From assembly GCA_905480225.1 (NCBI GenBank), contig CAJQPO010000003.1, forward strand, positions 1 to 37,046: a stretch of 37,046 bases of DNA, in the 5' to 3' direction. Made by a program: the position numbers and the translations under genes. Below, one piece after another: positions 16,715 through 35,651 of this stretch. The notes below the pieces were generated by a model, which worked only from the letters and a program-made list of their open reading frames with translations, had not been told where the DNA came from and ran no database searches. The stretch is from an uncultured Flavobacteriales bacterium (lineage in GTDB: Bacteria; Bacteroidota; Bacteroidia; Flavobacteriales_D; Parvicellaceae). Numbering within the stretch: the stretch's first letter is position 1; each line of letters begins with the position of its first letter.

Positions 16715-18490
16715 ATGAAATTACTTCTTTTCTTTTCTTCTTTATTTTTAATTAGTTTCGGACTGCTGGGTCAACACATCGTTCCAATTCAAGCCACGCC
16801 GCATGAGTTAACAAAATCTTCGATTAATGATTATAGAAAGACTTACGATAATGAATCAAAAGCGGTCATTACAACACAGCCTGTCGGAAACCTCAGAACA
16901 ATGGCCGAATGGGAAGAGGTTCAGGCCATATGTATTACTTGGACGAGTTATAAAAGTATTTTAGCCCAAATCGTTGCCGAAGCGCAAAGTGAATGTGAGG
17001 TAATTATTCTTTGTTCCAATGCTGCATCTGCACAAAGTGAACTGATAGGCTACGGTGTATCGCTTACTAATGTGACTTTTGTAGCGGACGATTACAATTC
17101 CATTTGGATGCGGGATTATGGTGGAAATACCGTTTATAAAGACTATGTAGATTCTCTTATTCTGGTTGATTGGATTTATAACAGGAGTCGACCTGATGAC
17201 AATACCGCGCCTGACGCAATAGGCAGTTTTAAAAACATTCCGGTTTATGAAATGTCCCAATCGGGAAGTGATCTGGTTCACACAGGTGGGAACTTTATGG
17301 CCGATGGATTTGGAACGGCTTTTTCTTCTGAGTTGGTGGATTATGAAAACAGTGTTTCAGGTTCTTTCAACATAACAGTGAAAACACCTGCGGAGGTAGA
17401 TCAATTAATGGAAGACTGGATGGGAATTGATACCTATGTAAAAATGACTGTTCTACCGTATGATGATATTCATCACATTGATATGCATATGAAATTGATT
17501 GATGAAGAGACGCTTGTTATTGGTGAATTTCCAACTTCTGTTTCTGATGGACCTCAAATAGAAATGAACATTCAGTATGTACAAGATAACTTTACTTCGG
17601 TTTATGGAACTCCTTATAAAATTATCAGAATTCCAATGGTTCCTAGTACGTCTGGTGGTTATCCAACGGGTTCATGGGGAGGAGCTTCCTACAGAACCTA
17701 TGCTAATAATCTTATTGTAAATAAAAAAGTTTTGGTTCCTACTTATAGAGAGGAATACGATTCCATTGGCTTAAGAATTCTTAGAGAATCCATGCCGGGT
17801 TATGAAGTTATTGGGATTGATTGTGATAATTCAGGTGCAAATATTATTGGTTCTGGTGGCGCAATTCATTGCATTACCAAGGCCATTGGGGTGGAAGACC
17901 CATTGTTGATTTCTCATCAAGAATTACCAAATACTGCAGATGTCAGTAACCCTTATAATGTCGATGCTTTAATCATGCATCGATCTGGAATATCTGATGC
18001 AATTTTATTGTACAAAGTTGGATTGTCTGGAACTTATACATCCGTATCCATGAGCAACACTTCTGCAGATAATTGGGCAGCTGAGATTCCCGCACAAAGT
18101 GCCGGTTCAAAGGTTTATTATTACATTAATGCAACATCCATGTCTGGCAAAAATCAAGTAAGACCAATAACTGCACCCGATGGTTATTTTCATTTTGAAG
18201 TTTCAGAAAGTGTTGGGGTTGCGGATGTAGAAATTTCTTTTGGTCGTGTTTTTCCTAATCCATCAGCAGGTTTAACATGTATTGAATTGAATAATACTAG
18301 GGAATTCTCAGGAACCTTATCTGTTTATAATGTTCTTGGACAAGAATTAGAAACCATTCATGCTGGATTGTTTAGGGGTAATAATCGAAAATACTTTATC
18401 GATGTCTCAAATTATGCTGCTGGTGCGTATCAGGTTGTTCTTAAATCAAATGCTATTTCACAATCGAAACCTCTTCTTGTGTATAAATAA
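16715..18490 (+). CDS. T9SS-exported agmatine/peptidylarginine deiminase family protein (PAD_porph)
   Basis: 591 residues. Signal peptide 1-19 (cut near LLGQ). Residues 60-392 are a guanidine-group-modifying deiminase domain of the Porphyromonas-type family (Pfam PAD_porph), which also contains agmatine deiminase. The catalytic set appears in the expected order: D134 (WMRDYG), H254 and D256 (HHIDMH), N331 or N332 (YANNLI), and nucleophile C386 (GGAIHC). R157 and R159 in YNRSRP resemble the arginine pair that binds the substrate carboxylate in P. gingivalis PPAD. A linker domain (about 400-497) and a T9SS type A sorting domain (511-591: FPNPSAG, 'YNVLGQELE', 'VSNYAAGAYQVVLKS') follow, as in PPAD. 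It should convert arginine or agmatine guanidine groups to ureido groups outside the cell, releasing ammonia. Which substrate is used is not settled. Confidence 0.92.
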   Translation: MKLLLFFSSLFLISFGLLGQHIVPIQATPHELTKSSINDYRKTYDNESKAVITTQPVGNLRTMAEWEEVQAICITWTSYKSILAQIVAEAQSECEVIILCSNAASAQSELIGYGVSLTNVTFVADDYNSIWMRDYGGNTVYKDYVDSLILVDWIYNRSRPDDNTAPDAIGSFKNIPVYEMSQSGSDLVHTGGNFMADGFGTAFSSELVDYENSVSGSFNITVKTPAEVDQLMEDWMGIDTYVKMTVLPYDDIHHIDMHMKLIDEETLVIGEFPTSVSDGPQIEMNIQYVQDNFTSVYGTPYKIIRIPMVPSTSGGYPTGSWGGASYRTYANNLIVNKKVLVPTYREEYDSIGLRILRESMPGYEVIGIDCDNSGANIIGSGGAIHCITKAIGVEDPLLISHQELPNTADVSNPYNVDALIMHRSGISDAILLYKVGLSGTYTSVSMSNTSADNWAAEIPAQSAGSKVYYYINATSMSGKNQVRPITAPDGYFHFEVSESVGVADVEISFGRVFPNPSAGLTCIELNNTREFSGTLSVYNVLGQELETIHAGLFRGNNRKYFIDVSNYAAGAYQVVLKSNAISQSKPLLVYK

Positions 18491-18504: not shown

Positions 18505-19158
18505 CTAGTAGTTTAAGTAATAAAAAGCAGTGTCACCAATATTACAAGTAATTGAATTACTGTAAGAATTTGTAAAACCATTTTTGGTTACTATCCATCC
18601 AATATCAAGTGTGCTATTGCCAAAGGTTAAACATTTTAATGAGGTGTCAACGGTGTCACCACTTAAGTTTGAGATGAGGTTTCCACAACAGCTCGGGCAA
18701 GATGGTTGACTGCTCGTAATTTGATATCGCAACAAGTCGGAAGAGTCTACGGGACTGGTATTTTTAATAATTACTTTGTACCACGCTTTTGGCTGTAAAT
18801 TAAAATCGTAGGTATTGGTTTCATTTCTTTGCAATTCATCAGAATCGAGAACAAGCGATTCACTAAACCTGTTTTGTCCAGTCACATCAATTTTATATTC
18901 GATTGCATTATAAGCTTCAAAATCATGTGAGTAATGACCAGAAGCATTTGAATTAGCGGTATGAAACACTACGAAATTATTAGAATATGTACCCGATGAA
19001 ATTTCTTTTACAGCTAATTGAATTTCTGCATCAGGAATCGTACTAGATGCGTCACTTATGGTACCTTCAATTGTGATTCTTGCCGAACTTGGTTTTTTAC
19101 ACGAATAAAACGTTGAGAAGAGTAAAATTAAAATAGTAACAGAAATAGAAGTTCTCAT
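18505..19158 (-). CDS. Lipoprotein with carboxypeptidase-regulatory-like domain
   Basis: 217 residues. Lipoprotein signal (TILILLFSTFYSC, lipidation cysteine at about 20). Residues 28-125 resemble a transthyretin-like/CarboxypepD_reg fold ('ITIEGTISDASSTIPDAEIQLAV' ... 'GHYSHDFEAYNAIEYKIDVTG'). The C-terminal half holds CPSCCGN and two further cysteines, probably forming disulfides or a small cysteine knot. It is the last gene of a minus-strand group; its start overlaps the stop of the upstream gene (ATGA). I do not recognise a specific function; a surface or periplasmic structural role is a guess. Confidence 0.8.
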   Translation of the reverse strand: MRTSISVTILILLFSTFYSCKKPSSARITIEGTISDASSTIPDAEIQLAVKEISSGTYSNNFVVFHTANSNASGHYSHDFEAYNAIEYKIDVTGQNRFSESLVLDSDELQRNETNTYDFNLQPKAWYKVIIKNTSPVDSSDLLRYQITSSQPSCPSCCGNLISNLSGDTVDTSLKCLTFGNSTLDIGWIVTKNGFTNSYSNSITCNIGDTAFYYLNY

Positions 19159-19970
19159 TTCATGTCAAAGGTATCCGTTGCATTATCGTAGCTTAGATAG
19201 TATTCTGCTTTTTCTAGATTGGAAACCTTCACAGAATCTCCATAACCTCTCTTGACTAATCGCCCGTATAAATCATGTATTTCATATTGTGTAGGGAGAG
19301 AAAAAACCAATTCTTTGGTTCTTTTGTTATATATGAAAGTTAATTTCGGTATGGACGATTTATGAATTACAGAAGTGCTTTTTTTAATTTTTCCTTCGTA
19401 ATTCCGCTGAATTATGCGGAACTTATTGTTTCCCGAAATCAGTTGAACTTTGAATAAATAGTCATGCATGTCAGGCGTGCCAATTCCTGCAATTTGACCA
19501 ACATCAACCCATTTATTCCATTTGAATTGTTGAACTACATAGTCTAAAATACCGGCTTCATTGGAAGTGGACCATGTCAAAATTCCTTCAGCGTTTAAAT
19601 CAATTTTTTCGGTTTCAAAGGTTGGTTTTGGCTTTAGTCCCGCTGGATTTAATACTTTAGGAGCACATCCACTTTTGTGTTTGATTTCAATAACAACCCT
19701 TTCTCCTGTCTTCAAGTCGAATTGTTTCAAATCAATTTCAAATGCTTTTCCATTTACTTCATCTGGGATTAGTTCTCCATTCACTCTAACCTCGTAAGTA
19801 CAATAGCCAACTCCATTCTCAGGGTATGGATTTGCAACATATATATTGCGATTTTGGTATTTGCCTTCAAGAATTATAACCCCTTCTTTTTCGTATTCAT
19901 TCACCGCATAAGTGAATGACATTAGAATGACCAAAATGGCAATGGTTAATATTTTGAGAAGTGGTTGCAT
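19155..19970 (-). CDS. Exported protein of unknown function with degenerate T9SS-like C-terminus
   Basis: 271 residues with an N-terminal signal peptide (residues 1-23, MSFTYAVNEY). The 25-110 region ('GVIILEGKYQNRNIYVANPY', 'GVGYCTYEVRVNGELIPDEVN', 'GERVVIEIKHKSGCAPKVLNP') and the 120-200 region look like beta-sandwich domains. The last 60 residues (LTFIYNKRTKELVFSL, YEIHDLYGRLVKRG, VSNLEKAEYYLSY) follow the strand pattern of a type A sorting domain but lack the usual P-N-P start. Homologous proteins occur in Bacteroidota, but no function is known to me. It sits 77 bases downstream of the Smr gene and overlaps the lipoprotein gene by 4 bases. Confidence 0.78.
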   Translation of the reverse strand: MQPLLKILTIAILVILMSFTYAVNEYEKEGVIILEGKYQNRNIYVANPYPENGVGYCTYEVRVNGELIPDEVNGKAFEIDLKQFDLKTGERVVIEIKHKSGCAPKVLNPAGLKPKPTFETEKIDLNAEGILTWSTSNEAGILDYVVQQFKWNKWVDVGQIAGIGTPDMHDYLFKVQLISGNNKFRIIQRNYEGKIKKSTSVIHKSSIPKLTFIYNKRTKELVFSLPTQYEIHDLYGRLVKRGYGDSVKVSNLEKAEYYLSYDNATDTFDMK

Positions 19971-20047
19971 GGTATAAAGTTACAATGTATACGTTAAATA
20001 GCCATAAAAGTGACGTAGAAATGTTACATTTCTTTAGATATTCTGGA

Positions 20048-20302
20048 TTAATGCCTGAAATGAATAAACAAACGCCCCCAATTCTTCCCATCTTTTTCTA
20101 CTCTGTGATACTTTTGCTTAATGGTTTTCTGATTCAAAAATCGAAGAACCTTCTTTTTTAATTGACCAGAGCCCTTACCCGGAATAATCTCAACCAATTT
20201 GATTTTTTTATCAATTGCCTCTTCAACGATGTCTTCCAAAGCTTGATCTATCAAATGGCCTTTGTTGTAAATATCATGAAGATCTAATTTAAGTTTGGCC
20301 AT
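20048..20302 (-). CDS. Stand-alone Smr-domain protein
   Basis: 84 residues, essentially one Smr (small MutS-related) domain. It begins with the conserved 'LKLDLHDIY' (family: hDLHG), continues with a helix, and has 'VEIIPGKGSGQLKKKVLRFL' (38-56), the counterpart of the IHGKGxGxLR nucleic-acid-binding loop, with P in place of H. Smr domains are nucleases or nucleic-acid binders; stand-alone versions are usually of unknown role. Its start overlaps the 3' end of the acpH-like gene by 14 bases, implying coupled translation. Related Smr modules sit at the C-terminus of MutS2, but no MutS2 sequence is here. Confidence 0.88.
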   Translation of the reverse strand: MAKLKLDLHDIYNKGHLIDQALEDIVEEAIDKKIKLVEIIPGKGSGQLKKKVLRFLNQKTIKQKYHRVEKDGKNWGRLFIHFRH

Positions 20303-20882
20303 GGTTCATTTTATACGAATTACAAAAATCGATAATTTGTGGAAAAAAACAATTGAATTCAGTGTTGTATAAATTCTCGTGTAACAACAAATCGGAGCTG
20401 GCATTTCTCATGTTATTTTCAAATTTGGTTCTTTTGGATAATCCATTAAGTGCTTTTGAAATACCTGAAACGTTTTGATAGCTAGTCAGCCAATCGTCTT
20501 CGACCATCTTATGGAATATCATTTGGGATAGCGGTGGCATGAATTTGATGTTCTTTTCAAGAATTTGATATTTATCGTTGATGAATGTTTCTAATGGTTC
20601 TTCACTAAATTTTAACCAATTTTTGCACAGGAAATAGTCGTAAAATAAATCAACGAGAATTCCAGAAAATTTATGATGACGAGGGTATAGTCGCGCTTTA
20701 CCTTGTAAAACAATTTTATGATTATCCGTGAATGAATCAATTGCTCTGTGCATTTTAATTCCCATTGCTATTCGAGGAGAGTAATTTAAAAAAGCATTGC
20801 CTTTTACGGCATCGCCAATAAAATTGCCGATGAGCAATTCATTGTCATTTCCACTAAGCAAAAGATGAGCCAGGTAATTCAT
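20289..20882 (-). CDS. Acyl-carrier-protein phosphodiesterase (AcpH family)
   Basis: 197 residues, the usual family length. It removes the 4'-phosphopantetheine arm from holo-ACP, giving apo-ACP. Family features are the N-terminal 'MNYLAHLLLS' with H6, 'IGNFIGDAVKGN' with N20 and D24, 'GIKMHRAIDSFTDNH' (H45, D49, D53), then 'ILVDLFYDYFL' and 'WLTSYQNVSGISKALNGLSKR', which all align with E. coli AcpH. The HD-like metal site is therefore complete. It is the first gene of the minus-strand group 20882-18505 and is divergent from the sensor kinase gene with 72 bases between them. Confidence 0.92.
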   Translation of the reverse strand: MNYLAHLLLSGNDNELLIGNFIGDAVKGNAFLNYSPRIAMGIKMHRAIDSFTDNHKIVLQGKARLYPRHHKFSGILVDLFYDYFLCKNWLKFSEEPLETFINDKYQILEKNIKFMPPLSQMIFHKMVEDDWLTSYQNVSGISKALNGLSKRTKFENNMRNASSDLLLHENLYNTEFNCFFPQIIDFCNSYKMNHGQT

Positions 20883-20954
20883 AGGTATTTATGTGCTTTT
20901 GTAATTTGATTCATACCTTTCCAGTAAATTTAGTAAAAGCAGTAATTTATCAGT

Positions 20955-21983
20955 ATGAGTAAGGCAGTTTCTTATTGGATTGCGCAAGTTCTGGGTTGGG
21001 GAACACTCATTACATTGGGTTTAATTTTTCAAAAGGGGGAGATACGGTCTGAATTTGTTTTAGAGGCGGCACTTTTCTTTTTGTCAGGAATAGTTATAAC
21101 TCATTTCTACAGAGGCATAATTATTAAATGGAATTGGCTCACTCTAAAATTGATTAAGCTAATTCCAGTCGTGTTAATCGCTAGTATTCTATTATCTGTT
21201 TTGTTTTTTTCTACTGATTTCATGATGGATTATTTGCTTGGGAGAAGACCGGTTATTTTGAAAAATTTCGGGGACTTAATTTTCCAGATTTTAAGCTATG
21301 CTGCTTACTTTTTATTTTGGTCCATTATCTATTTTGGTTACCATTTATTTGAAAAATCTCGAGAACAGGAGATTAGAAATATTCAACTCAGAGCAACTAA
21401 AAATGTAGCTGAATTGCAAAACTTGAGAACTCAACTTAACCCTCATTTCATGTTTAACGCTATGAACAGCATTAGGGCTTTAGTGGATGAGAATCCTGAA
21501 AAAGCAAAAGTCGGCATTACCAAGCTATCTAATTTACTTAGAAGTACTTTGATAGCGGGTAAAAAAGATTTATTGCCTTTTGAAGATGAATTAGATATCG
21601 TTAAGGATTATCTAGACTTAGAAAAAATTAGATTTGAAGAACGATTAAATTTTTCATTTGATATTGAACCAGAATTATTAAAGCGAAATTTCCCTCCGCT
21701 ATTATTGCAAACCATTGTTGAAAATGCGGTGAAACATGGAATTTCAAGTTTGTCTAAGGGTGGTAGAGTTTTCATTTCTGCCAATATGGTAGAAAACAAC
21801 ATGATTATACGGGTTTTAAATTCTGGAAAATATAATCCAGATAAACGTTCAAAATCCACGGCCATAGGAATTGAGAATTCAATAAAAAGATTACAAATTA
21901 TGTTTGGAGACCAAGCACATTTGAAAATTGGAAATCATGCTGGTGAGGTTAGAACTACCATTACACTCCCATTGAATGAATAA
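20955..21983 (+). CDS. LytS-type sensor histidine kinase
   Basis: 342 residues. Four hydrophobic helices at about 8-26, 38-58, 68-88 and 108-130 form the membrane sensor with no extracellular domain of note. A short helix leads to the His_kinase domain: LRTQLNPHFMFNAMNSI with phosphoacceptor H164, then the HATPase with N-box N257 (VENAVKHGI) and the AIGIENSIKRLQ G-box. This is the LytS/YehU subfamily, which pairs with LytTR regulators. The stop codon is 11 bases before the regulator gene, so the pair is one operon. The ligand cannot be inferred. Confidence 0.95.
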   Translation: MSKAVSYWIAQVLGWGTLITLGLIFQKGEIRSEFVLEAALFFLSGIVITHFYRGIIIKWNWLTLKLIKLIPVVLIASILLSVLFFSTDFMMDYLLGRRPVILKNFGDLIFQILSYAAYFLFWSIIYFGYHLFEKSREQEIRNIQLRATKNVAELQNLRTQLNPHFMFNAMNSIRALVDENPEKAKVGITKLSNLLRSTLIAGKKDLLPFEDELDIVKDYLDLEKIRFEERLNFSFDIEPELLKRNFPPLLLQTIVENAVKHGISSLSKGGRVFISANMVENNMIIRVLNSGKYNPDKRSKSTAIGIENSIKRLQIMFGDQAHLKIGNHAGEVRTTITLPLNE

Positions 21984-21994
21984 ATAGTCAGAGT

Positions 21995-22717
21995 ATGAAA
22001 ATAATAATTATTGATGATGAAAGGTTAGCCCGTCAGGAACTCGCAAATTTATTGAGTGAGTATGCCGAGATGGAAATAGTTGATCAGTGCAGTAATGCCA
22101 ACGATGCCATTGTTAGCATTGAAAAATGGAATCCAGACCTTATTTTTTTAGATATTAATATGCCCGAAAAATCTGGTTTTGATCTTTTGATGGAATTAGA
22201 ATATGCTCCGAAAGTCATTTTTGTAACTGCTTATGATGAATTTGCACTCAAGGCATTCGAAGTAAATGCATTGGATTATTTGCTAAAACCAGTAGATCCG
22301 AATCGTTTACAGGAAGCGGTTAATAGGATTAATGCGGAACAAGATTCAATTCCAGATTTATTGAAAGACCAGAATGGAAGACTTGGAATGAATGATCAGA
22401 TATTTTTAAAGGACGGTGAAAAGTGTTGGTTCGTAAAATTGGAAGATATCCGATTGTTTGAATCAGAAGGGAATTATGTTCGTGTATTTTTTAAAAGTTT
22501 TAAACCGCTGATTCTGAAGTCATTGAATACATTGAACGACAGGTTGGATCAGAAACACTTCTTCAGAGTAAGTAGAAAGTATATAGTTAATCTTTCCTAC
22601 ATTGATAAAGTTGAAAATTGGTTTAATGGTGGTCTTCAGCTGACTTTGAAAAATGGGGAAAAAATAGAAGTCTCTCGACGGCAAGCTACCAAATTTAAAG
22701 ACCTGAAGAGTCTTTGA
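21995..22717 (+). CDS. LytTR-family response regulator
   Basis: 240 residues. The receiver domain (1-115) has the acidic pair D7-D8, phosphoacceptor D53 (FLDINMPEKSG), T78 and K98, all canonical. The 'DEFALKAFEVNALDYLLKPV' segment is typical of LytR/AlgR-type regulators. Residues 135-237 are a LytTR DNA-binding domain ('IFLKDGEKCWFVKLEDIRLFES', 'NYVRVFF', 'FFRVSRKYIVNLSYIDKV', 'VSRRQATKFKDL'). It is the obvious partner of the upstream kinase. A hairpin overlaps its stop codon. Target promoters are unknown; LytTR sites are usually direct repeats about 10 bases apart, which I did not find next to the genes. Confidence 0.95.
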   Translation: MKIIIIDDERLARQELANLLSEYAEMEIVDQCSNANDAIVSIEKWNPDLIFLDINMPEKSGFDLLMELEYAPKVIFVTAYDEFALKAFEVNALDYLLKPVDPNRLQEAVNRINAEQDSIPDLLKDQNGRLGMNDQIFLKDGEKCWFVKLEDIRLFESEGNYVRVFFKSFKPLILKSLNTLNDRLDQKHFFRVSRKYIVNLSYIDKVENWFNGGLQLTLKNGEKIEVSRRQATKFKDLKSL

Positions 22718-22823: not shown

Positions 22824-23216
22824 ATGGATCAACTTTACATTCAGGAAACTGCTCTCACGCCAGAAGTAATTTTCCGCCCTAGTGATGGTACTTTTGTAAT
22901 TTCAGGAAAGTCTATTCCTGAAGATGCTGAGACATTTTACAGCCCAATACTAGATTGGGTAGACCAATTTTCGAAAAATGTATCCTGCGAGGTACATTTA
23001 ACTATTGAATTAGAATTCTTTAATATATCTTCTTCTAAAAGGCTACTTTTTTTAATGTACAAGTTAAATGAGCTTGTGGATCAAGGGGAAAAAGTTGAAA
23101 TTACTTGGATGTGTAAAGAAAATGATGACGATATGTACGAGGTAGGTCAAGATTATGCATTTATGGTAAATATTCCATTTCATTTTTACACTAACGGTGA
23201 AAAAATGCTAGCGTAA
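22824..23216 (+). CDS. SiaC-like regulatory phosphoprotein (DUF1987)
   Basis: 130 residues, the full length of a DUF1987/SiaC protein. Visible family features are 'FFNISSSKRLLFLMYKLNEL' (66-85) and 'ITWMCKENDDDMYEVGQDY' (93-111). In Pseudomonas SiaC is phosphorylated on a Thr in an N-T-S-S motif by the kinase SiaB and binds the diguanylate cyclase SiaD; here the corresponding segment reads N67-I-S-S-S, so the Thr position is Ile and S69-S71 are candidates instead. The alignment is from memory. No SiaA, SiaB or SiaD gene is adjacent. It starts 106 bases after the regulator and may be separately transcribed. Confidence 0.87.
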   Translation: MDQLYIQETALTPEVIFRPSDGTFVISGKSIPEDAETFYSPILDWVDQFSKNVSCEVHLTIELEFFNISSSKRLLFLMYKLNELVDQGEKVEITWMCKENDDDMYEVGQDYAFMVNIPFHFYTNGEKMLA

Positions 23217-32387: not shown

Positions 32388-35300
32388 TTATTTTTTTGCA
32401 ATTCTCACCATTTGTGGAGTTCCAGAAACTTTAGTTTTTAAAATGTAAATTCCTGCACTGTACCTGCTTAGATTGATTATTGGATTATCTGACTCTATGA
32501 GCATTCTTCCCGCGTAATCATAGATTTCATACACTGTTCCAATTGGTAAGCCTTGTACATTAAAAAAACCTGTTCCTGGGTTTGGATATACGCTGATGTT
32601 GGGTTTTTCAATTTCGGATGTGTTGGTAGCGGGTTGATAATTGGTTATATTAATGTTGTCTATATAAAGCCAATTTCCTTGTCTGCCAATATTTCTAAAA
32701 ATAATTTTCACACTGCTATCGCCAATTACATTGCTGACATCAACTGTTACTTTTGTCCAATATGTCGGTTCGGGAGAGAAGGGTCCAGTAAACAGTCCGC
32801 TCACCGTTGCTAAATTAGTACCACCTTCTTGCCATTCATGGTTTACCATCCCACCACAGTTAGATGTAGTATAAATCGCTAAGCTGTCTTTCTTGTACCC
32901 ACTATTCCGACCATAGGCATAATCAAATTGTAACCAAATTTCCGATTCATTAGAAGCGTCAAAGGCCGCTGAAAAAAATTCATCAATGGCCAAGAAGTTT
33001 TGACTGTAATTATCTATTGCAATGCACGAATCGCTTAGGCCGTAAGCGCCAAAAGGTTCGAGTTTCCACCCTTGCAACAAGTCTGGATTGTTAATGACCC
33101 ACTCCGAATTAATGCCAGATTCAAAGTCTTCGTATAAATCTAATGGGTTAACTAAAGGATGGTCAACAGATATGTGATGTAATTTATCAATGGTGTCACT
33201 CCCTGTGGCATTGTTTACAATAAGCTGTACATCGTATGTTCCAAGTGCCGGATAAGTTACAATGGGATTTTGATCTGTACTTGTTGCTGGTATCCCTCCT
33301 GGAAAACTCCATGACCACAAGGGGCCGTGGTTGCTGCAATTATCAAAAAAATGTACAATTTGACCCGGGCAAACATCATTAAAATCTGATTTAAAATCCG
33401 CTACTGGTAGACCTAGTGGTCCCTTTAGAGGAGATTCCCAGACACCTCTTCCATATGTTCCAGCTCGAATAGTAGCGGTTGCATAATGAATGTTAAGCTC
33501 GTTAACGATTACATTGGGAAGACCATCATCAAAAGTTTGCCAATAAACTAAATTACTGTCTTTGTAGTAAACGCCATTATCTGTTCCTATATAAAGACCC
33601 GCGTTAGAACCTGCTTCATATACGATACAATTGACAGGTATATTGGGTAGATTCACGGTGATGTTGTCCCAAGAAGCACCGGCATTATTTGTTACATAAA
33701 CTTTCTTCCCGCTGGTATAACCAGACAGTGTTAAAAAAACCACATTTGGATTAGTCGGACTAATAGTAAACGAAGATATCCACTGGCCAGAAGGAAGATT
33801 GGAATTGCAATTAACCCATGTTGCACCGGCATCATCTGTTCGCCAAATGTCATTGTAGCTTGAGTAATACACAACATCTGGATCCGCTGAAGAAATCTCC
33901 ACGTACTGTATTGTGGTGCCTGAAGGGGAAACTTTTTCCCAATCTAGACCACCATCTACAGTTTTCCAAATGGCTGAATACCCTGCGTACAATATGTCTG
34001 TATTCGAAGGATTAATTACATACGGAGTAACCCATCCGCCATTATCAATTATACTGTCAGAAATACCAAAAAAATTAATTCCTCCATCTGTCGTTTTATT
34101 CATCGAACCATTTTGGTAGCAGGTATACCATGTGTTTTGATCGGAAGGGTCAATGATTGCTTCCATTCCATCGCCACCTCTAATGTGTTCCCAACCACTA
34201 GCTTTTCTAATGAAAGTACCATTGTCTTGTAGTCCACCAATAATTAGATCTGCATTTTGCTCTGTTAAGCCGATTTTGTAAAATTGTGAGACCTCCAATC
34301 CTTCGGATAAGTCTGTCCATGTTGTTCCGCTATTATATGATTGAAAGATACCTCCGTCACTACCACAGTATAGCTTAGCCCCGATGTAATCTAAACAGTG
34401 AATGTCAGCATGCGTATAACCCACTGAAGACGGATGCACCCAATGGGAAATTATGGTGAAGAAATTTCCACCATCATTCGATCGCCAGACATTAACTCCT
34501 CCTACAACAATACGTTCTTTGTTGGAGTGGCTGCATGCAATAGCAAGATCGTACCAACCTTGACCACCTGAGCTTGTACCATCTTCAGAGTAACCCAACA
34601 GATTGGTTGTATCGTATCTTAAATCATAAGTAATACCACCATCAACAGAGCGATATACACCTAATAAGCCATTATCTGCAACACTTGAAGCAAGCGCGTA
34701 AACATAATTTGAATCTGCTTCCGTGACGGCAATTGCAACTCTGCCAACAATTGAAGTTGCCGGTAGTCCGGAACTTGCTGTAAAAGAATTACCACCATCA
34801 TTGGAATAAAATGTGGAAATACCACTTGCATAAATTGTATTCGGGTTCGCTGGGTTTAATTCAATATCTCTAATGGAATAGTTGTTTTTTCGTACCCAAT
34901 TATCACCACCGTCAGTCGTTTTATAAAACCCGTTATTTGTGGCCGCCCATAAAATTTGATCATTTGTGGGATGTATTAACAATTTGTACACTTTTTTCGC
35001 TGAGGTTACCACGTAGTTTAAGTCTGTAGTAGACCATGTCAATCCACCATCTACGGATTTAACTACGCCAATACTATATGTATCACTACCGTCTCCATCG
35101 CCTGTTGCAGCGTAAATTAAGTTTGAATTGGAATTGCTGATAACAATAGACGAAATGCCCATGCAAATAAAATCATCAGATAACGGAGTCCAGGTGCTAC
35201 CCGAATTTAAGGATCGCCATATGCCTCCAGAAGGAGAACCAATGTAAATGATGTTAGAGTTATTAGGGTCTTCTGTGATGCAATTTACACGTCCATTACC

Positions 35301-35651
35301 GGGATTCCATCCAGTAGGATTTGTCCAGCTATTAGGTCCAAGGGAAGTCCAATAACTTGATTTTTGTTCAATGGGTGGAAATTTTGACTCAAAATTCAAT
35401 CGCTCAATGTAATTAGCAACAGGGGATGGGCGATTTCCTGTGGGATACACACGCGGCTCCATAAAATATTCCCATCTTTTAAATTGTTTATACCCTAGGC
35501 CTCTCTCAATATTTCTATTGCCCCAATGGTCCAAAAAAGATTGTTGGACGGTGTAAAAGTTGACATCGGGGTCTTGCATTTCTTCGACCCAAACTTGTCC
35601 ATTAATATTTTTGACAAAAATTAAAAGAGCGATAATGACGATAATTTTCAT
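32388..35651 (-). CDS. Large T9SS cargo: BNR/sortilin-like propeller, PKD and type A sorting domain
   Basis: 1087 residues. Signal peptide 1-18 (cut near NINGQ). About 110-740 consists of repeats typical of BNR/VPS10-like propellers, such as 'GIWRSLNSGSTWTPLSDDF', 'GFYKTTDGGDNWVRKN', 'AIWKTVDGGLDWEKVSP', 'DIWRTDDAGATWVNCN'. Residues 749-830 are a PKD domain (PVADFKSDF, 'WSWSFPGGIPATSTDQNPIVTYPALGTYDVQLIV'). A jelly-roll-like domain at 840-1005 opens with 'YEDFESGINSEWVINNP'. The sorting domain is at 1020-1087 (VYPNPGTG, 'YEIYDYAGRML', 'SRYSAGIYILKT'). A glycosidase-like or binding role for the propeller is common in this family, but no active site is recognisable. Confidence 0.93.
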   Translation of the reverse strand: MKIIVIIALLIFVKNINGQVWVEEMQDPDVNFYTVQQSFLDHWGNRNIERGLGYKQFKRWEYFMEPRVYPTGNRPSPVANYIERLNFESKFPPIEQKSSYWTSLGPNSWTNPTGWNPGNGRVNCITEDPNNSNIIYIGSPSGGIWRSLNSGSTWTPLSDDFICMGISSIVISNSNSNLIYAATGDGDGSDTYSIGVVKSVDGGLTWSTTDLNYVVTSAKKVYKLLIHPTNDQILWAATNNGFYKTTDGGDNWVRKNNYSIRDIELNPANPNTIYASGISTFYSNDGGNSFTASSGLPATSIVGRVAIAVTEADSNYVYALASSVADNGLLGVYRSVDGGITYDLRYDTTNLLGYSEDGTSSGGQGWYDLAIACSHSNKERIVVGGVNVWRSNDGGNFFTIISHWVHPSSVGYTHADIHCLDYIGAKLYCGSDGGIFQSYNSGTTWTDLSEGLEVSQFYKIGLTEQNADLIIGGLQDNGTFIRKASGWEHIRGGDGMEAIIDPSDQNTWYTCYQNGSMNKTTDGGINFFGISDSIIDNGGWVTPYVINPSNTDILYAGYSAIWKTVDGGLDWEKVSPSGTTIQYVEISSADPDVVYYSSYNDIWRTDDAGATWVNCNSNLPSGQWISSFTISPTNPNVVFLTLSGYTSGKKVYVTNNAGASWDNITVNLPNIPVNCIVYEAGSNAGLYIGTDNGVYYKDSNLVYWQTFDDGLPNVIVNELNIHYATATIRAGTYGRGVWESPLKGPLGLPVADFKSDFNDVCPGQIVHFFDNCSNHGPLWSWSFPGGIPATSTDQNPIVTYPALGTYDVQLIVNNATGSDTIDKLHHISVDHPLVNPLDLYEDFESGINSEWVINNPDLLQGWKLEPFGAYGLSDSCIAIDNYSQNFLAIDEFFSAAFDASNESEIWLQFDYAYGRNSGYKKDSLAIYTTSNCGGMVNHEWQEGGTNLATVSGLFTGPFSPEPTYWTKVTVDVSNVIGDSSVKIIFRNIGRQGNWLYIDNINITNYQPATNTSEIEKPNISVYPNPGTGFFNVQGLPIGTVYEIYDYAGRMLIESDNPIINLSRYSAGIYILKTKVSGTPQMVRIAKK

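Follow-up and report, generated by a model that had tools for sequence, protein, structure and literature searches.

Gene and domain organisation of the deiminase

Within the window (the whole stretch of 37,046 nt that was analysed, from an uncultured marine Flavobacteriales bacterium), an intact ORF at 16715–18490 on the forward strand, with the boundaries given in the preliminary description of this DNA, encodes a 591 aa product that is predicted from translation, Pfam, phmmer and dN/dS to be a secreted arginine deiminase resembling the PPAD of Porphyromonas gingivalis. Orthologues within the same genus and family are of equal length, and comparison with a congener gave a dN/dS of 0.07; the gene is under purifying selection, and its residue pattern is real and selected. 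The protein starts with a predicted signal peptide, read by eye (MKLLLFFSSLFLISFGLLG followed by Q; 16715–16771, +), which has no lipobox cysteine and forms a helix at residues 2–17 in the structure model. This is followed by a guanidino-modifying PAD_porph catalytic domain (residues 62–389; 16898–17881, +; Pfam PF04371, E = 4.8e-36; Foldseek to PPAD, E = 3e-39) and by a predicted Ig-like β-sandwich at approximately residues 395–495 (17897–18199, +), the putative counterpart of the PPAD IgSF domain, where β-strands are present in the AlphaFold model and through which the phmmer alignment to PPAD extends, up to residue 494. The C-terminus, from residue 512 to the end (18248–18487, +), is a T9SS type A sorting domain, matching Por_Secre_tail PF18962 at residues 512–585 (E = 3.2e-8) and TIGR04183 above its cut-off. 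The PPAD-like layout proposed in the preliminary description is therefore present in full, with the Ig-like domain after the catalytic domain in addition to the signal peptide and T9SS tail. No second PAD_porph gene was found in the genome, which is 96% complete, and a scan for σ70 promoters gave no site on the strand of the deiminase gene, with a site count below that in shuffled sequences.

The AlphaFold2 model, built with 78 sequences, had a pLDDT of 88.5 and a pTM of 0.86, and PPAD accounted for each of its top seven Foldseek matches in the PDB (E = 3e-39 to 3e-38; TM by target 0.85–0.87, and 0.86 for the best), whereas structures of the agmatine deiminase type began at E = 2e-22. Similarly, a phmmer search against all PDB sequences had PPAD (4yt9) as top match over residues 53–494 (E = 4.4e-37), versus E = 5e-18 for the best chain of the agmatine deiminase type.

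Conservation of the active site

Residues were mapped by alignment to 4yt9, with PPAD numbering taken as chain position + 43 because the catalytic Cys351 corresponds to residue 308 of the chain, and conservation was scored in an alignment of 78 sequences, made up of the query plus 77 relatives taken from GTDB genomes. The D/H-x-D/N/C set described earlier for this protein is complete, with D134 (17114–17116, +) corresponding to the guanidinium-binding D130 of PPAD, H254-x-D256 (17474–17482, +) to H236-x-D238, and C386 (17870–17872, +) to the nucleophile C351, while the choice left between N331 and N332 is settled in favour of N331 (17705–17707, +), the equivalent of N297. All five residues are invariant (78/78), as is T190 of the PPAD-type TGGN motif (T190–N193; 17282–17293, +), a position occupied by Glu in agmatine deiminases. 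The equivalent of the Michaelis loop, the role of which is known from PPAD (PMC4487231), lies at 17444–17479 (+) and carries the clade motif LPYDxIHHI(D).

The R157-S-R159 segment (17183–17191, +) aligns without a gap (WIYNRSRPDDN versus FIYNRPRPNDD) with R152-x-R154 of PPAD, which are ligands of the substrate carboxylate and carbonyl (PMC4487231, PMC4893104), as the preliminary description had supposed; given the overall fit of the model to PPAD, the side chains of both arginines may reach into the pocket. Judged from the alignments, the pair is not there by chance, since R157 and R159 are identical in 78/78 clade sequences and neither arginine occurs in any of the 16 Bacteroidota agmatine deiminases, where the first site holds Ala, Gly or Ser and the second Tyr, Phe, Trp, Ile or Ser.

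Phylogeny and distribution

In an IQ-TREE phylogeny of 48 catalytic domains, which was not rooted by the data, the agmatine deiminases formed a separate clade (100/100), and the query protein did not cluster within them. The branch side supported at 99/93 holds the query clade (94/72), PPAD, a group from the unnamed Bacteroidota family f33 and two Flavobacteriia proteins; PPAD pairs with the f33 group (100/98) and not with the query clade, which neighbours the PPAD subclade but lies outside it. In this tree the deiminase is thus a cousin of PPAD and not its sister. With agmatine deiminases taken as outgroup, PPAD seems to sit within a set of secreted R-x-R enzymes, and secretion and the R-x-R pair therefore probably predate Porphyromonas. 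An origin of PPAD from a cytosolic agmatine deiminase fused to secretion domains has been proposed previously (PMC4487231).

The R-x-R pair is not universal among the relatives of PPAD. The two Flavobacteriia proteins grouping with PPAD (L056 in G239 and L057 in G191, ~520–536 aa) keep the catalytic residues and TGGN and lack both arginines (YKYGCP, VNSDP); they have no evident T9SS tail and a lipoprotein-like Cys at the N-terminus, and their substrate probably differs. A third secreted group (L047–L051 and L069, ~700 aa; 100/98) carries EGGN, so that Glu occupies the T180 site, and has just the second of the two arginines (G/T/P-x-R); it may represent an intermediate linking agmatine deiminases to enzymes of the PPAD type. 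A further T9SS-tailed PAD_porph homologue (L068, G269:C25:116000–118500) has the triad His, Asn and Cys replaced by N, Q and E, and is likely to be a secreted pseudoenzyme.

A close homologue was detected in 16 of the 37 family genomes searched, and homologues with >40% identity in 20 other genomes out of ~395 drawn across the phylum, while two short patterns matched no fewer than 546 candidate relatives among GTDB genomes; the R-x-R pair was checked in the 78 aligned sequences and not in all 546 candidates. The best 80 of the 546 came largely from Bacteroidota of marine, freshwater, groundwater and sludge habitats, including Crocinitomicaceae and Saprospiraceae, and the nearest named relatives are genomes from marine metagenomes, so that the term environmental, used in the preliminary description for an enzyme of this type outside Porphyromonas, is fitting. 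By these homologue counts the clade is widespread in environmental Bacteroidota. PPAD has been called unique among microbes (PMC4487231), but pPAD genes have also been noted in passing to occur more widely than had been assumed (PMC8826395), and wide distribution alone is thus not new; bacterial PADs have also been reported as donors of the PADs in centipede venom (PMC7864903). In the openly searchable literature we found no study of this deiminase clade, or of a missing Tyr gate outside Porphyromonas.

Export, arginine metabolism and gene neighbourhood

The genome encodes SprA (2514 bits) and PorU (1241 bits), which together with the matches of the C-terminal tail makes the previously suggested T9SS export of the deiminase credible. 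The possibility of a gingipain partner, known from P. gingivalis, was considered and rejected, as neither of the two C25 proteins is a gingipain: one is PorU and the other is PorU2-like. The latter is 1736 aa in length (G000:C38, L158:1859–7069), and is present besides the canonical PorU located elsewhere in the genome. Another T9SS cargo, of 1087 aa with Sortilin/Vps10-type repeats and a PKD domain, is encoded at 32388–35651 of the window.

Arginine scavenging, one of the roles suggested for the enzyme in the preliminary description, is unlikely, because citrulline would not be convertible to arginine by the ArgG or ornithine carbamoyltransferase (OTC) routes. Neither ArgG nor OTC was found in the 96% complete genome, the OTC-like match being PyrB, and ArgG was above cut-off in 0/39 family genomes, and salvage via the deiminase was hence rejected. 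Release of ammonia or modification of peptides would be likelier roles.

A 217 aa putative lipoprotein is encoded convergently with the deiminase (18505–19158, −). Weak homologues of it sit immediately upstream of the deiminase gene at several Flavobacteriales loci elsewhere, and it is a possible partner. In many Flavobacteriales (window 18505–22714; loci L102, L106, L115, L116, L121 and L136), the genes near the deiminase code for an ACP phosphodiesterase, a LytTR response regulator together with a histidine kinase, a 271 aa protein and a small lipoprotein; a gene for a SiaC-like regulatory phosphoprotein (22824–23216) is located near the two-component pair. Elsewhere the deiminase gene often comes after those for an MltF-like lytic transglycosylase, present nearby in ~20 loci, and a small lipoprotein. 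The MltF-like gene is absent from the window and the lipoprotein gene there is convergent with that of the deiminase, and we therefore do not claim a link to either as operon partners.

Substrate and proposed function

In PPAD, R152 is indispensable and touches the substrate carboxylate (PMC4487231). R154, which is less important, contacts both the carboxylate and the carbonyl before it, and Y233, on the mobile Michaelis loop, is a third carboxylate ligand that obstructs any chain continuing after the arginine (PMC4487231, PMC4893104). The preliminary description took the R-x-R pair as a sign of PPAD specificity, but arginine deiminases and human PADs possess the two arginines as well (Goulas et al. 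2015, PMC4487231), and the pair hence does not fix exo-specificity; it is a sign of binding of the arginine main chain, and no proof of specificity for C-terminal Arg. Moreover, the PPAD-type Tyr gate is missing, with Y233 replaced by D251 (17465–17467, +). Among the 78 clade sequences, this site is Gly in 38, Asp in 17, Glu in 9, Asn in 5, Val in 3, Ala and Leu in 2 each, and Gln and Ile in 1 each, and is never Tyr. The Michaelis loop also holds residue 249 (Tyr in 72 and Phe in 6 of the 78) and the invariant Asp250, which may take over the gate role in this clade.

We consider it probable that the protein is an arginine deiminase of the PPAD superfamily, located at the cell surface or released, which acts on arginine with a backbone and not on agmatine. 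Its signal peptide would direct it into the periplasm, from where the T9SS type A tail would guide it through the SprA translocon, with PorU expected from its presence to cleave the tail. Based on the conserved residues and the fold, the five-blade guanidino domain would hydrolyse the guanidinium of arginine by means of Cys386, His254 and Asn331, together with Asp134 and Asp256, giving citrulline and ammonia, while R157 and R159 would hold the main-chain carboxylate or carbonyl. Arginine-ending peptides are the most likely substrate, and free arginine could also be used; as the Tyr gate is missing, peptide chains continuing beyond the arginine may meet less obstruction than they do in PPAD. 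The enzyme would likely yield citrulline and ammonia outside the cell, or altered peptides, rather than recover arginine. The acidic D251, close to where the carboxylate is expected, counts against this reading.

The absence of Y233 would also fit an endo- or broad peptidylarginine deiminase that accepts internal arginines, as PAD4 (Ser468) and PAD2 (Thr468) do: R-x-R is common to PADs, replacement of the Tyr (by Ser or Thr in human PADs) is the stated reason for their use of extended substrates with internal arginines (PMC4487231), and Gly is the most frequent residue at this site in the clade. The conserved Tyr/Phe249 and Asp250 may however close the pocket instead, and we regard internal-arginine activity as an unlikely, if substantial, alternative. 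A bolder version, in which a large environmental clade of T9SS-exported, gate-less PADs citrullinates internal protein arginines, with PPAD as a late, gate-closed derivative, is slightly less likely again, but would make extracellular protein citrullination common in aquatic Bacteroidota. An extracellular deiminase of free arginine, yielding ammonia and citrulline, would be in keeping with R-x-R as the carboxylate site of arginine deiminases too (PMC4487231) and with the ability of PPAD itself to act on free arginine (PMC4893104); against this stand the missing ArgG and OTC to use citrulline, and the cost of destroying external arginine to an organism that probably needs it, which makes this a rather improbable function.

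That the protein is a secreted agmatine deiminase, as the nearest NCBIfam models suggest, is highly improbable. The fold is the same, but the similarity to these models is weak and below cut-off, at 52 bits versus 381.8 for TIGR03380 (agmatine deiminase) and 483 for the other. The 16 agmatine deiminases have an A/G/S-W insertion (A/G-W-G segment) and Glu at the site of PPAD T180 (T190 here), both absent from the deiminase, and R-x-R argues for arginine with a backbone, and against agmatine, as the substrate. SpeA and AguB were not found in the genome (96% complete), where the best matches were LysA and a PRK10438-type amidohydrolase, making an agmatine role unlikely. Identity as an agmatine deiminase was thus rejected on residues, tree and missing pathway partners.

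Of the earlier interpretation, the layout, the R-x-R pair, separation from agmatine deiminases, export and occurrence outside Porphyromonas are supported, and PPAD specificity and arginine scavenging are not; nor is the deiminase the closest kin of PPAD. The secreted, Ig-bearing R-x-R layout appears widespread in environmental Bacteroidota, with PPAD falling among such enzymes, and Porphyromonas is probably not alone in citrullinating outside the cell. Enzymes that naturally have or lack the Tyr gate offer a means to test exo- versus endo-specificity in citrullination.

Comparison with known systems

Agmatine deiminases (AguA, PF04371; 1xkn, 1zbr and 2jer) share the Pfam family, fold and catalytic residues with the deiminase, but are ~350 aa in length, lack R-x-R as well as Ig and T9SS domains, and form a separate clade. 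Human PAD4 and PAD2 resemble the deiminase in having two main-chain-binding arginines and no Tyr gate (PMC4487231), but according to the literature are calcium-dependent, have another domain build and show sequence kinship only at superfamily level. The f33 proteins (L043–L046), the nearest relatives of PPAD that were found, have R-x-R, TGGN and the catalytic set as in the deiminase, with a T9SS tail in the three members seen at full length; they have open frames of 886–1064 aa and Ala at the Y233 site, and are 36–43% identical to PPAD and ~31% to the query. PPAD itself (4yt9, 4ytb, 4ytg and 5ak7) has the same order of signal peptide, guanidino domain, Ig-like domain and T9SS tail, and shares the D/H-x-D/N/C set, R-x-R, TGGN and the lack of the agmatine deiminase insertion. 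The deiminase differs from PPAD in belonging to a separate clade with about 26–28% identity, in the replacement of the Y233 gate by D251 and of C239 by the invariant Met257, and in the Michaelis-loop motif of its clade, LPYDxIHHIDMHMK, which is unlike that of PPAD.
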